From Streptomyces sp. Tue6028 (GTDB taxonomy: Bacteria; Actinomycetota; Actinomycetes; Streptomycetales; Streptomycetaceae): DNA of 64,000 nt. Where the stretch lies: contig NZ_MLCE01000019.1 of the NCBI RefSeq assembly GCF_002300165.1, forward strand, positions 62,001 to 126,000, written 5' to 3'. The position numbers were made by a program, and so were the translations under genes. The number at the start of each line of letters is the position of its first letter. Within the stretch, counting starts at the first letter, position 1. The notes beneath the pieces are model-generated. The model worked only from the letters and a program-made list of their open reading frames with translations, did not search any database and was not told the origin of the DNA. Below are positions 53,894 to 57,143 of the stretch, piece after piece.

Positions 53894-55276
53894 CTACTCG
53901 CTCCCCAGCAGTCCCTCCAGGTCCAGCGCCATCGCGATCCGTACGGCCACGTCCTCCGCGTACGTGGCGTCCGCGCGCTCGAACTGGCTGCGTCCCGCGC
54001 CCCGCAGGAACGTCACGACGCCCAGGGTCCGTCCCCGGCTGCGCAGCACGACGCACAGCGCGTGCACCGAGTCCGGCGGCCACTGGCGGGCCACGGCCCA
54101 CTCGCGTGCCTGCTCGGTCCCGGCGGCACCCGCGCTGGCCCGTACGGACCCGGCGCGGTCCACGCACTGGAGCGCGGGATGCCCGTCCCCGTAGCGCACG
54201 GGCAGTCCCGCCTTGCCGGTCAGCATGCTCGGGCCGGGCGCCCCCGAGGGCGTGGCGGCGGCCCTGACGAGCCGGACGGGGCCTTCCCCGTCGCGCAGCG
54301 AGCCACCCGCCACCCGGTCGATCAGCGCGTGGTCGGCGAAGCCGGCGAGCGAGAAGTCGAGGTGGACGGTGGCGGCCTCCGCCGGGTCCTCGCACTCGGC
54401 GGCGGCCCGTGCCGCCCGGTGCAGCTGGATGGCGCGGAAGCGCAGCTGAGCCGCCTCCTGCTCGGCCTGCTTGGCCTCCGTCACGTCCTGGAAGAGCCAT
54501 CCCACGCCGAGCGGTACGGGCTCCTCGGCGAGCGGTGAGGCGAGGCGCAGGAACCCGCTGCGCCAGCAGCGCCGCTTCTCGCCCTCCGGGGTCCGCAGGC
54601 TCACCCACATCTCGGCGGGCGCGGGCGGGGCACCCTCGGCGAGCACATGGGTGAGCGCGCCCTCCAGGTCCTCGACGCCCTGGGAGAGCAGTTCTCCGAG
54701 GGGGCGTCCGAGCAGGGACGTACGGCCGGTCCCGAGGGCTCGTGCGGCGTGGGCGTTGACGACGGCGGGCCGCAGGTCGGCGTCGACGAGGACGACGCCC
54801 CAGCTGGCGTCCTCGAACAGCGCCTCGCTGAGCGCGATGGACCGTTCGAGGTCGATCTGGGCGTGCACCTCGCTGAAGGCGCAGTACACGCCGGCGGGTT
54901 TGCCGTCCGGTCCGCGCACGGCGGCGGACTGGGTGCGCACCAGCACCCGGCCGCCCTCCTTGGTCAGCAGGGCGAACTCGTGGACCTGCCGTCCGGGTGC
55001 CTCCATGGCGGACAGCAGCCGCGCCTCGACCTCCTCGGCGTCCGCGGTGCGCACCGCCCATCCGGCGAACCCGTGCCGGCCGACGGCTTCGGCGGCGGTC
55101 CAGCCCAGGATGCGCTCGGCCTCGCGGTTCCAATGGGTGACGACACCGTCGGCGTCGAAGGCGCACAGCGCCGCGTCCATCCCGTCCAACAGCGCGGCAA
55201 GCAGATCCGAACCATCCCGCTCGGGCTCGTCGGGCCCCAGCTCGTCGGTGGTCCCACTACGCCGGGAAGCACTCAC
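53894..55276 (-). CDS. PAS-PAS-GAF sensor protein without an output domain
   Basis: 460 residues from a GTG five bases after AGGGGG (a start ten codons upstream is possible). PAS 1 about 25-135 (LDGMDAALCAFDADGVVTHWNREAERILGWTAAEAVGR, EGGRVLVRTQSAAVRGPDGKPAGVYCAFSEV), PAS 2 about 145-260 (ALFEDASWGVVLVDADLRPAVVNAHAARALGTG), coiled linker, and a C-terminal GAF-like region (VHALCVVLRSRGRTLGVVTFLRGAGRSQFERADATYAEDVAVRIAMALD) that usually precedes SpoIIE phosphatase domains. The protein ends there, so it may act by protein contact. Ligand unknown. Confidence 0.85.
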   Translation of the reverse strand: MSASRRSGTTDELGPDEPERDGSDLLAALLDGMDAALCAFDADGVVTHWNREAERILGWTAAEAVGRHGFAGWAVRTADAEEVEARLLSAMEAPGRQVHEFALLTKEGGRVLVRTQSAAVRGPDGKPAGVYCAFSEVHAQIDLERSIALSEALFEDASWGVVLVDADLRPAVVNAHAARALGTGRTSLLGRPLGELLSQGVEDLEGALTHVLAEGAPPAPAEMWVSLRTPEGEKRRCWRSGFLRLASPLAEEPVPLGVGWLFQDVTEAKQAEQEAAQLRFRAIQLHRAARAAAECEDPAEAATVHLDFSLAGFADHALIDRVAGGSLRDGEGPVRLVRAAATPSGAPGPSMLTGKAGLPVRYGDGHPALQCVDRAGSVRASAGAAGTEQAREWAVARQWPPDSVHALCVVLRSRGRTLGVVTFLRGAGRSQFERADATYAEDVAVRIAMALDLEGLLGSE

Positions 55277-55509
55277 CTGGACCCCCTGCAGGCTGTGTGT
55301 CCGCACGTACGGCGCGACAGTTCACTCACTGGCAATCATTCAACTCGAACGTGACCCAGCCCACATCGCCTTCCCCAAAGATTGGACGAAATCGTTGTAC
55401 GCCGGATTTCCGTCCCGCCCGCCCCAGAAACCCATGACTTTCCCGGCCACCGCACCGGGCCTGCGGGAACGCCCGGCACGGGCGCCGCGGATACTTTCCA
55501 AAAAAACGG

Positions 55510-55538
55510 TTGAAGCGTGCGGGATCGGTTCCTAGTGT
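55510..55538 (+). promoter_or_regulatory. Strong housekeeping-type promoter
   Basis: TTGAAG (55510-55515), 17-bp spacer, TAGTGT (55533-55538), preceded by an A-run. Transcription should start near 55545 and run into the 12-codon ORF and the structured region. Confidence 0.65.
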
Positions 55539-55571
55539 GTGGTGCACACGAGAAGGGAGGTGGTTCGGCAG

Positions 55572-55610
55572 ATGTATGGAAACCGGACGCGTGAGGTGGC
55601 TGCGGGCTAG
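55572..55610 (+). CDS. 12-codon ORF with good ribosome site
   Basis: ATG eight bases after GGGAGGTGG, encoding MYGNRTREVAAG and a TAG stop. It begins about 27 bases into the predicted transcript and ends about 80 bases before the large hairpin. Could be a regulatory leader peptide; no known amino-acid run typical of attenuators. Confidence 0.4.
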   Translation: MYGNRTREVAAG

Positions 55611-55692
55611 CGGCCCGTCACCACATCCAGTGCGGTGCCGGACCAGCACGTGAATCGAGCGTGCAGCCGGCCCCAATCCCAAGCAGTCACCC

Positions 55693-55763
55693 GACCTGTG
55701 GGCTCGCCGGTACGTCCGGCCGGCTCCTCCGCCGCGAGGCGGAGGGACCCGAGCCCACAGGTC
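55693..55763 (+). ncRNA. Candidate structured RNA: three-way junction with GNRA tetraloop
   Basis: The outer 13-bp stem GACCTGTGGGCTC (55693-55705) pairs with GAGCCCACAGGTC (55751-55763). It encloses two hairpins: GCCGG-TACGT-CCGGC (55706-55720) and CCTCCGCC-GCGA-GGCGGAGG (55726-55745), whose GCGA loop is a GNRA tetraloop. The perfect 13-bp outer stem and stacked hairpins argue for a functional RNA fold. It lies in non-coding DNA downstream of the promoter at 55510; transcript extent unknown. Confidence 0.5.
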
Positions 55764-55906
55764 GTCTGCGTTTCACGGGGCGTTCCGTGCCCGGCATCCG
55801 CGTCCGCCGGGCCGCCGGACCCGCGCTCCGCACCCGCCCGCGGGCGAATTCACGGGATGTGAGGCAGGACACACCCGTATCCGAAGGCCCGCAGTACTCT
55901 TGGGCC

Positions 55907-55984
55907 ATGCTTCCGATGCTCGTTCGACGCCGCCACGTGGACTTCGTGCGCGTCACGAGCATGGGCTGTCGGCGCTCTGCCTGA
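55907..55984 (+). CDS. Putative leader peptide (RRRHVD type)
   Basis: 25 codons, or 22 from the second ATG at 55916, containing VRRRHVDFVRVTSMGC near the C terminus. Short peptides with RRRHVDL-xR and a terminal Cys are annotated in many Streptomyces as 'putative leader peptide', usually ahead of sulfur or cysteine-related genes. TACTCT at 55895-55900 ends six bases before the ATG, so the mRNA is probably leaderless. The next gene, 103 bp downstream, is an IPNS-family oxygenase. Its single Cys codon would be the sensor in a cysteine-attenuation model (inference). Confidence 0.6.
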   Translation: MLPMLVRRRHVDFVRVTSMGCRRSA

Positions 55985-56087: not shown

Positions 56088-57143
56088 ATGACGACGTACA
56101 CGTCTTCCCCGAACCACCGCCTGCCCGGGCCGCAGCACGGCTCCCGGCAGCTTCCGATCATCGATCTGTCCGCGGCCGACCGCGGACCCCAGGCCCGCGC
56201 CCTGCTGCACGCGCAGCTGCACAGCGCTGCCCACGACGTGGGCTTCTTCCAGCTCGTCGGGCACGGGGTGAGCGAGGAGGAGACCGGCGCGCTGCTGCGG
56301 GCGATGCACCGGTTCTTCGCCCTCCCCGAGGCCGACCGGCTCGCCCTCGACAACCTGAACTCGCCGCACTTCCGCGGCTACACCCGCACCGGCGACGAGC
56401 GCACGGGCGGCAGCCGGGACTGGCGCGACCAGCTGGACATAGGGGCCGAGCGGGCCCCGCACGTGCCGGGCCCCGGCGAGCCCGCCTACTGGTGGCTCCA
56501 GGGCCCGAACCAGTGGCCCGCCGCGCTGCCCGAGCTGCGCACCGCGGCGCTCGCCTGGATCGACCGGCTCAGCTCGGTCGCCGAGCGGCTGCTGCACGAG
56601 CTGCTGACCGCGATCGGGGCACCGGCCGGCTTCTACGACCCGGTCTTCGGGGAGCGGGCCCATCCGCACCTGAAGCTCGTGCGCTACCCCGGGAGCGCCG
56701 GGGACGGCGCCGATCAGGGGGTCGGCGCGCACAAGGACTACGGCTTCCTGACGCTGCTGCTCCAGGACCAGGTCGGCGGGCTCCAGGTGCAGCGGGAGGA
56801 CGGGCTGTTCCACGACGTGCCGCCGCTGCCGGGTGCCTTCGTCGTCAACCTGGGCGAGTTGCTGGAAGTGGCCACGAACGGGTACCTGCTGGCCACCAAC
56901 CACCGGGTGGTGAGTCCCGCCGGGGCCACCGAGCGGTTCTCGGTGCCGTTCTTCTACAACCCCCGGCTGGACGCCCGGGTCGAGCCGCTGCCCTTCCCGT
57001 ACGCGTCCGCCGCCCCCGGTGTGACGACGGACCCGGACAATCCGCTCTTCGCGGAGTACGGCTTCAACGAACTGAAGGGGAAGCTGCGCGCCCACCCGCT
57101 GGTCGCCGCCCGTCATCACGCAGAGCTGCTCACCCCCGCGTGA
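56088..57143 (+). CDS. Isopenicillin N synthase family 2OG-Fe(II)-type oxygenase
   Basis: 351 residues. N-terminal DIOX_N (LPIIDLSAADRGPQARALLHAQLHSAAHDVGFFQLVGHGV) and C-terminal double-stranded beta-helix with iron ligands H-x-D in GVGAHKDYGFLTLLLQDQVGGLQVQ, distal His in LLATNHRVVSPAGATERFSVPFFYNP and the RxS co-substrate-binding arginine. No beta-lactam genes are nearby, so isopenicillin synthesis is not implied; hydroxylation or oxidation of a small molecule is. The RRRHVDF peptide gene upstream may control it. Confidence 0.92.
   Translation: MTTYTSSPNHRLPGPQHGSRQLPIIDLSAADRGPQARALLHAQLHSAAHDVGFFQLVGHGVSEEETGALLRAMHRFFALPEADRLALDNLNSPHFRGYTRTGDERTGGSRDWRDQLDIGAERAPHVPGPGEPAYWWLQGPNQWPAALPELRTAALAWIDRLSSVAERLLHELLTAIGAPAGFYDPVFGERAHPHLKLVRYPGSAGDGADQGVGAHKDYGFLTLLLQDQVGGLQVQREDGLFHDVPPLPGAFVVNLGELLEVATNGYLLATNHRVVSPAGATERFSVPFFYNPRLDARVEPLPFPYASAAPGVTTDPDNPLFAEYGFNELKGKLRAHPLVAARHHAELLTPA

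Follow-up and report, generated by a model that had tools for sequence, protein, structure and literature searches.

A micro-ORF, an extended 16S rRNA tail complement and covarying helices in the Ms_IGR-5 RNA of Streptomyces sp. Tue6028

The locus and its RNA family

In the 64,000-nt stretch of Streptomyces sp. Tue6028 DNA that we analyzed (the window), an intergenic region separates a PAS-domain gene (53894-55306, minus strand) from a DIOX_N/2OG-Fe(II) oxygenase gene (56088-57143, plus strand); beyond the latter follow a citrate synthase gene on the minus strand and then a PNPOx gene. The region carries, all on the plus strand, a promoter at 55510-55538 (-35 element TTGAAG at 55510-55515, 17-nt spacer, -10 element TAGTGT at 55533-55538), a 12-codon micro-ORF at 55572-55610 with the ribosome site GGGAGGTGG, and a 3′ hairpin with a three-way junction at 55693-55763. 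This hairpin, a probable terminator without a U run, has a perfect 13-bp stem (55693-55705 with 55751-55763) that lies within the Rfam consensus, and encloses two hairpins, one at 55706-55720 and one, capped by a GCGA loop, at 55725-55746. The RNA points away from the PAS-domain gene and toward the oxygenase gene.

An earlier note on this DNA had picked out the promoter, the ORF with its strong ribosome site and the three-way-junction fold; all three are present as it described. The promoter pattern TTG-N16-19-TANNNT recurs at the equivalent place in 75 of 98 loci of the RNA family introduced below and is absent from 23, mostly of deep lineages. The GCGA loop, of GNRA type, exists here but is not conserved: a GNRA hairpin with at least 4 bp in the last 95 nt was found at only 7 of 46 same-genus loci. 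The opinion that the parts were not there by chance was borne out both by the fold of 55510-55763 (z = -4.47, with 0 of 200 shuffles as stable) and by the family match (E = 4.7e-17). The minimum-energy structure of 55546-55790 differs from that of 55510-55763; a fold based on energy only is thus not unique and depends on the ends chosen.

Searching the window with cmscan gave a match to RF02471 (Ms_IGR-5, an actinobacterial sRNA) at 55546-55770 on the plus strand, with 83.8 bits against a cut-off of 45 bits and spanning the full model (1-184). This was the sole Rfam family above cut-off within the window and, under permissive settings, the only one at E ≤ 1 in 55400-55900, where no 6S model matched at that threshold. 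The earlier note, which knew of no fitting Rfam family, was mistaken on this point; that the element belongs to the Ms_IGR-5 family is, judging from this match, near certain.

The family is present in 54 of 61 relatives (36/37 of the same genus, 14/15 of the same order, 4/9 of the same class) and in none of the 14 named control genomes. In a phylum-wide draw of 396 genomes RF02471 was found in 70 at E ≤ 0.001, 35 of them above cut-off, vs 143 genomes matched by R1, a model that we built on the 5′ module of the RNA; these multi-genome searches used stricter Infernal filters, with which weak matches are lost. One relative has a second, weak RF02471 match (G047:C377:10470-10603, 27.6 bits) that falls below the cut-off and was excluded from the analysis.

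We compared 178 homologous loci: 98 RF02471 loci and 80 further loci, of which 68 were found by R1 alone and 12 were weak RF02471 matches. RF02471 loci were analyzed for all 54 genomes among the relatives and for 59 of the 70 genomes of the phylum-wide draw (11 left out); of the 73 R1-only genomes 68 were analyzed, the five omitted having E above 1e-6. From Mycobacterium we took 77 of at least 80 loci, three being too close to the locus end. The loci were retrieved with models containing the tested columns, and related sequences are not independent; the counts below should be read with this in mind.

Transcription of homologues is on record. The S. lividans TK24 homologue, SLIV_16488, was validated by RNA-seq (PMC8079986), the S. 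avermitilis homologue is given as an sRNA transcription unit (PMC8780764), and in M. smegmatis Ms_IGR-5 overlaps a transcript (PMC10454040), as stated in the respective passages. The claim of a transcribed regulatory RNA is therefore well supported. For the M. abscessus and M. smegmatis homologues, ribosome reads are described in a passage of PMC4974804, with the caveat that structured RNPs may yield such reads without translation. Neither the passages on the S. lividans, S. avermitilis and mycobacterial homologues nor the Rfam entry give a function for Ms_IGR-5, and the same literature passages make no mention of an ORF or of pairing with 16S rRNA.

Two other identities were considered and dropped. 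Ms1/scr3559 is, according to passages of PMC9130861, PMC8539372 and PMC11077062, also an actinobacterial sRNA of similar size that binds a part of the expression machinery; it differs in that it binds the RNA polymerase core and in its locus, between sco3558 and sco3559. It was rejected as the RNA of the window because the M. smegmatis paper lists IGR-5 and Ms1 separately (a passage of PMC10454040) and because the loci differ. As for a phage or plasmid origin, blastn gave no match in the phage and plasmid collections; four viral contigs fit a loose pattern, but without an RF02471 match.

The gene next downstream differs in identity and strand among 23 inspected loci, seven neighbors at six of which were typed with Pfam. 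On the opposite strand we saw PNPOx (pdxH-like, L043), citrate synthase (L048), NAD-dependent DNA ligase (L083) and a THAP4-like gene (L031, with a class IV aminotransferase gene upstream); on the same strand, Clp_N (L006) and an epimerase (L029). A conserved downstream gene on the same strand, such as a leader would be expected to have, was not seen across the inspected loci. Since the neighbors vary in this way, the RNA is, as far as this comparison goes, free-standing and not the leader of the oxygenase gene.

The remainder of the intergenic region holds some small ORFs. One of them (55907-55984, plus strand, MLPMLVRRRHVDFVRVTSMGCRRSA) lies ahead of the oxygenase gene. An RHVD(L/F)-type pattern has five matches in the strain's own genome, four of which, this ORF included, are short ORFs with a Cys-containing tail; the other three (RRHVDLARVSSSSCRREA, RRHVDLRRVGTAACRPR and RRHVDLGRMSSAICPAS) together with it resemble a leader-peptide family. 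RHVD-type leader peptides occur upstream of sulfur genes. Over the RNA itself, either strand shows overlapping reading frames (91-118 aa, within 55326-55984); these look like artefacts of high G+C content, and none of them was taken as a gene.

The complement of the 16S rRNA tail and the micro-ORF

Immediately ahead of the micro-ORF, nucleotides 55551-55569 (plus strand) would pair without interruption, G-U pairs counted, with the last 19 nt of the 16S rRNA of this genome, forming an extended Shine-Dalgarno sequence. The letters of the tail were taken from the genome's own 16S gene; the position of the mature 3′ end is assumed from general knowledge. When both strands of the 64 kb were scanned in 25,588 windows of 30 nt (step 5), this duplex came out best, with -33.3 kcal/mol; -27.0 kcal/mol was the value of the next distinct site. 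A 16-nt tail pattern with G-U allowed has one match in the window, where 0.02 are expected, and three in the 7.96-Mb genome: the one here, one in a histidine kinase coding sequence and one in the 16S gene. Among 31 relatives the pattern has matches in 25 genomes and none in six; many of these matches read as the exact complement, as a 16S gene would, and are presumably such genes.

The complementarity recurs at the homologous loci. When all 178 were compared with the same 16-nt tail letters, rather than with each genome's own 16S, the longest pairing run was 16 nt in 141 loci, 15 in 31, 14 in two and 12 in four; at least 15 contiguous pairs are thus kept in 172 of 178. This comparison shows the tail complementarity to be conserved. 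In the open-licence papers that our searches turned up, a set without the presumed discovery papers, we saw no link between Ms_IGR-5 and the 16S tail; the RNA itself is known, and the anatomy described here does not appear in those papers as far as we saw of them.

The micro-ORF encodes MYGNRTREVAAG in the window (ATG at 55572, TAG at 55608-55610). It contains a second Shine-Dalgarno-like motif, GAGGTG (55593-55598), 9 nt ahead of the stop codon. A stop codon stands 8 or 9 nt past GAGGT(G/A) in all 178 loci (TAG 137, TGA 31, TAA 10), the distance being 9 nt in 166 and 8 nt in 12. In the 98 RF02471 loci it always follows GAGGTG by exactly three codons (TAG 74, TGA 15, TAA 9), and TGG at that place was seen 0 times, vs 11.3 expected under independence of positions 2 and 3, an expectation that ignores the relatedness of the loci. 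In the 80 further loci the distance is 9 nt in 68 and 8 nt in 12 (TAG 63, TGA 16, TAA 1). Among the matches listed for Mycobacterium, the stop is TAG in all 77 analyzed loci, which had been found by a pattern ending ahead of the stop; GGAGGTGGTCC occurs upstream in 74 of the same 77.

A canonical in-frame start (ATG, GTG or TTG) is present in 155 of 178 loci, and the remaining 23 have a near-cognate codon only (CTG, ATT, ATC, ATA or ACG). For the RF02471 loci the canonical start with an open frame was found in 88 of 98, with ORF lengths of 12 codons in 77, 13 in five and 14 in six; the other 10 have CTG, ATT, ATC or ACG in frame. For the further loci it was found in 67 of 80, the near-cognate starts of the remaining 13 being CTG (7), ATC (3), ATT (2) and ATA (1). 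The two other frames had canonical starts in only 12 of 196 cases in the first set and in 0 of 160 in the further loci. We also observed that the further loci, despite a very strong ribosome site, use TTG most often (45 loci), whereas ATG is found in 18 and GTG in four.

The 12 loci with 8-nt spacing (L135, L144, L160, L164, L169, L182, L183, L184, L190, L192, L207 and L212) make a natural experiment that uncouples the ORF from the motif: the motif, GGAGGT, falls into another frame, and start and stop still share theirs, the start being canonical in 10 loci and ATT in two. Some of these ORFs are shorter, with 10 codons in several.

By these comparisons the micro-ORF is shown to be conserved, and it is likely to be translated in this strain. 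The peptide is a different matter. Among the 12-codon ORFs, 59 of them distinct, no base of codons 2-4 is fixed and none of GAG GTG changes. No conserved peptide emerged; the remaining conserved codons coincide with paired RNA. With codons 2-4 free and GAG GTG invariant, it is the act of translation rather than the peptide that looks selected; the peptide itself appears not to be under selection.

Helices P0, P1 and P2 and a pseudoknot

The earlier note had proposed covariation among orthologues as a check of the fold. Covariation was found, mainly in helices that the note had not named: P0, P2 and a pseudoknot (PK), which this comparison shows to be supported.

Helix P0 (plus strand) joins 55547-55550 (CACG) to 55590-55593 (CGTG). 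In 93 distinct sequences 94.9% of its cells are paired, and one pair shows A-U, G-C, C-G, G-U and U-A. In the 80 further loci 98.8% are paired vs 63.6% after shuffling (highest shuffle 71.6%); with fixed offsets the first set gives 75.8% vs 58.3%, since some loci slip by one base. The joint covariation score of P0 and P1 is 0.357 vs 0.151 shuffled (0/500), and 0.03-0.11 when slid.

Hairpin P1 (55563-55568, GTTCGG, with 55583-55588, CCGGAC; plus strand) holds the start codon in its loop. It is paired in 84.2% of cells, with covariation chiefly at the inner pairs: the inner two changed on both sides in 17 and 10 cells, the outermost in four. Of the 93 sequences, 20 and 28, respectively, do not form these inner two pairs. 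As a phylum-wide helix P1 was rejected, its core having no covariation beyond shuffles.

Helix P2 (plus strand) joins 55595-55603 (GGTGGCTGC) to 55683-55691 (GCAGTCACC). All nine pairs are present in 66 of 80 anchored loci, 18 of the 98 RF02471 loci being not anchorable; 94.9% of cells are paired vs 91.6% shuffled (0/2000 shuffles). We prefer this anchored count because the unanchored one, 76 of 98 with at least nine contiguous pairs, takes in off-place matches (for example at L030, L086, L091, L094, L097 and L098). In the further loci nine pairs are formed in 25 vs 10 with the downstream region reversed, and there we saw exchanges such as GGTGATGAG:CTCATCACC and GGTGCCCGG:CCGGGCACC. P2 is missing from the minimum-energy fold of 55546-55790.

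The pseudoknot pairs 55585-55589 (GGACG), inside the ORF, with 55713-55717 (CGTCC) in the 3′ hairpin loop and at its edge (plus strand); in the window it takes up bases of two pairs in the stem of the inner hairpin. It excludes P1, and P1 excludes it, as GGAC is common to both. An exact 5-nt complement lies downstream in 133 of 171 loci, where 2000 shuffles gave 62.4 on average and never more than 82; 38 of the 171 have no exact complement, and seven of the 178 lack the NGAYN motif. By class, the complement is present for GGACG in 45/49, GGACC in 37/49, GGACA in 10/17, GGACT in 7/14 and AGACC in 6/11. The complement of TGACC is found in 14/14 loci of that class vs 10/157 others; that of CGACC is found in 11/11, yet is common elsewhere (69/160 other loci). 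In Mycobacterium, among the matches listed, 54 of the 77 analyzed loci have the five-base PK complement and 33 the exact 7-nt P2 partner.

RNAalifold on the 5′-domain alignment gave neither P0 nor P1, producing six pairs without covariation. The first (5′) helix of the Rfam model (positions 14-19 with 55-60) is paired in 82.1% of cells, equal to shuffles, and in none of the 93 sequences has a pair in which both partners changed.

A possible ribosome-gated switch and its rivals

RF02471, a family for which we found no function, hereby gains three testable features: the near-complete complementarity to the 16S tail, a micro-ORF that is kept although its first codons are not, and, within this ORF, a pseudoknot that covaries. 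A conserved ORF with its stop codon suggests that elongation and termination matter, beyond binding alone, and a conserved tail complement points to very strong recruitment. As both are conserved and the codons coincide with core helices, we favor a reading in which this free-standing sRNA would be a switch acting in trans, gated by ribosomes that are caught via the 16S tail; we judge its chances to stand about level.

The switch might work as follows. The sRNA, with its own promoter and its own 3′ hairpin, would have a 5′ part serving as a ribosome-capture module, up to 19 nt of which could bind the 16S rRNA at its single-stranded 3′ tail, putting a 30S subunit on the 12-codon ORF. Codons 5-11 are made of nucleotides of P1 or the pseudoknot, P0 and P2; as these overlap the core helices, a ribosome initiating, elongating and terminating there would have to melt the core of the RNA, which could refold once ribosomes leave. 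A terminating ribosome would have in its P site a codon that lies 6 nt past GAGGTG; judging from this spacing, the motif could hold the ribosome at that point. Depending on whether ribosomes occupy the RNA, its 3′ half, namely GCAGUCACC of P2 and the loop of the 3′ hairpin, may then be exposed or hidden and so act in trans. Translation of the ORF in this strain, its gating of the fold and the nature of the output are inferred.

If such gating is true, the RNA would be a sensor or store of ribosomes, widely conserved in antibiotic producers and mycobacteria, and the function of the family could be tested by point mutations in two base-paired segments. One could speculate further, and we do so tentatively and with considerable doubt, that Actinomycetota possess here an RNA dedicated to capturing ribosomes, a counterpart of a hibernation or subunit-buffering factor, which would clamp most of the free 16S 3′ tail, lead the ribosome through an ORF of 10-15 codons into a pseudoknot, and report or store the ribosome through the P1/PK switch.

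The main rival to a gated switch is a ribosome decoy or parking RNA, in which a 30S or 70S particle would be held by the full 16S tail, a weak start and structured codons behind it, and the output would lie in the capture as such, as in hibernation or a buffering of free subunits. The 15 or more tail pairs in 172 of 178 loci would suit a decoy, as would the weak starts common in the further loci (TTG in 45, near-cognate in 13) and the spacing that puts GAGGTG 6 nt ahead of the P-site codon once the stop has reached the A site; a pure decoy would have no need of the preserved stop codon and open frame, and we regard it as rather unlikely. Less probable still is an ordinary trans-acting sRNA that pairs with mRNAs and whose ORF merely protects or matures it. 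Rfam files RF02471 as an sRNA, and the P2 and 3′ loop segments are short, potentially single-stranded sequences; the near-complete match to the 16S tail is left unexplained by this reading alone.

That the encoded peptide is the product seems very improbable: the ORF is preserved in all 178 loci (with only a near-cognate start in 23) and its C-terminal EV is conserved in the 12-codon ORFs, but codons 2-4 are free, the conserved codons are those of paired RNA and are not exchanged for synonyms (GAG and GTG being invariant), and the motif lies in another frame in 12 loci. Least credible is that the RNA would be a transcription attenuator, an option named in the earlier note, or a leader of the oxygenase gene: its ORF, alternative helices and terminator follow one another as in a leader, and that gene does lie downstream on the same strand, but the reading is already disfavored by the genes found in that place in relatives (PNPOx, citrate synthase, DNA ligase and THAP4-like on the opposite strand, epimerase and Clp_N on the same strand) and by the RNA ending in a hairpin of its own.

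SgrS/SgrT is one of the dual-function (coding) sRNAs; another, VcdRP (PMC8672173), is like the RNA described here in its short transcript, ribosome site and small ORF. A conserved small ORF with a ribosome site, as in those sRNAs, was indeed found; the difference is that in this RNA the peptide lacks conservation in its first part, the conserved elements being the start, the stop and the near-full 16S complement. The extended Shine-Dalgarno sequence of S. aureus likewise makes a duplex reaching past the core and goes together with noncanonical starts; it belongs to mRNAs, and the solved complex has two additional pairs, whereas here up to 19 pairs would be formed, and by an sRNA (passages of PMC13009471).

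Compared with its own family, entered in Rfam under the type sRNA gene, the RNA of the window matches over the whole length above cut-off; the difference lies in the helices, the first one of Rfam having no covariation, while P0, P2 and PK covary here. By an estimate from gene numbering, the number of scr4389 would presumably agree with the place of Ms_IGR-5 on the S. lividans map, making it a tentative candidate for the same RNA. The RNA of this name is from S. coelicolor and is named in a passage of PMC8388888.
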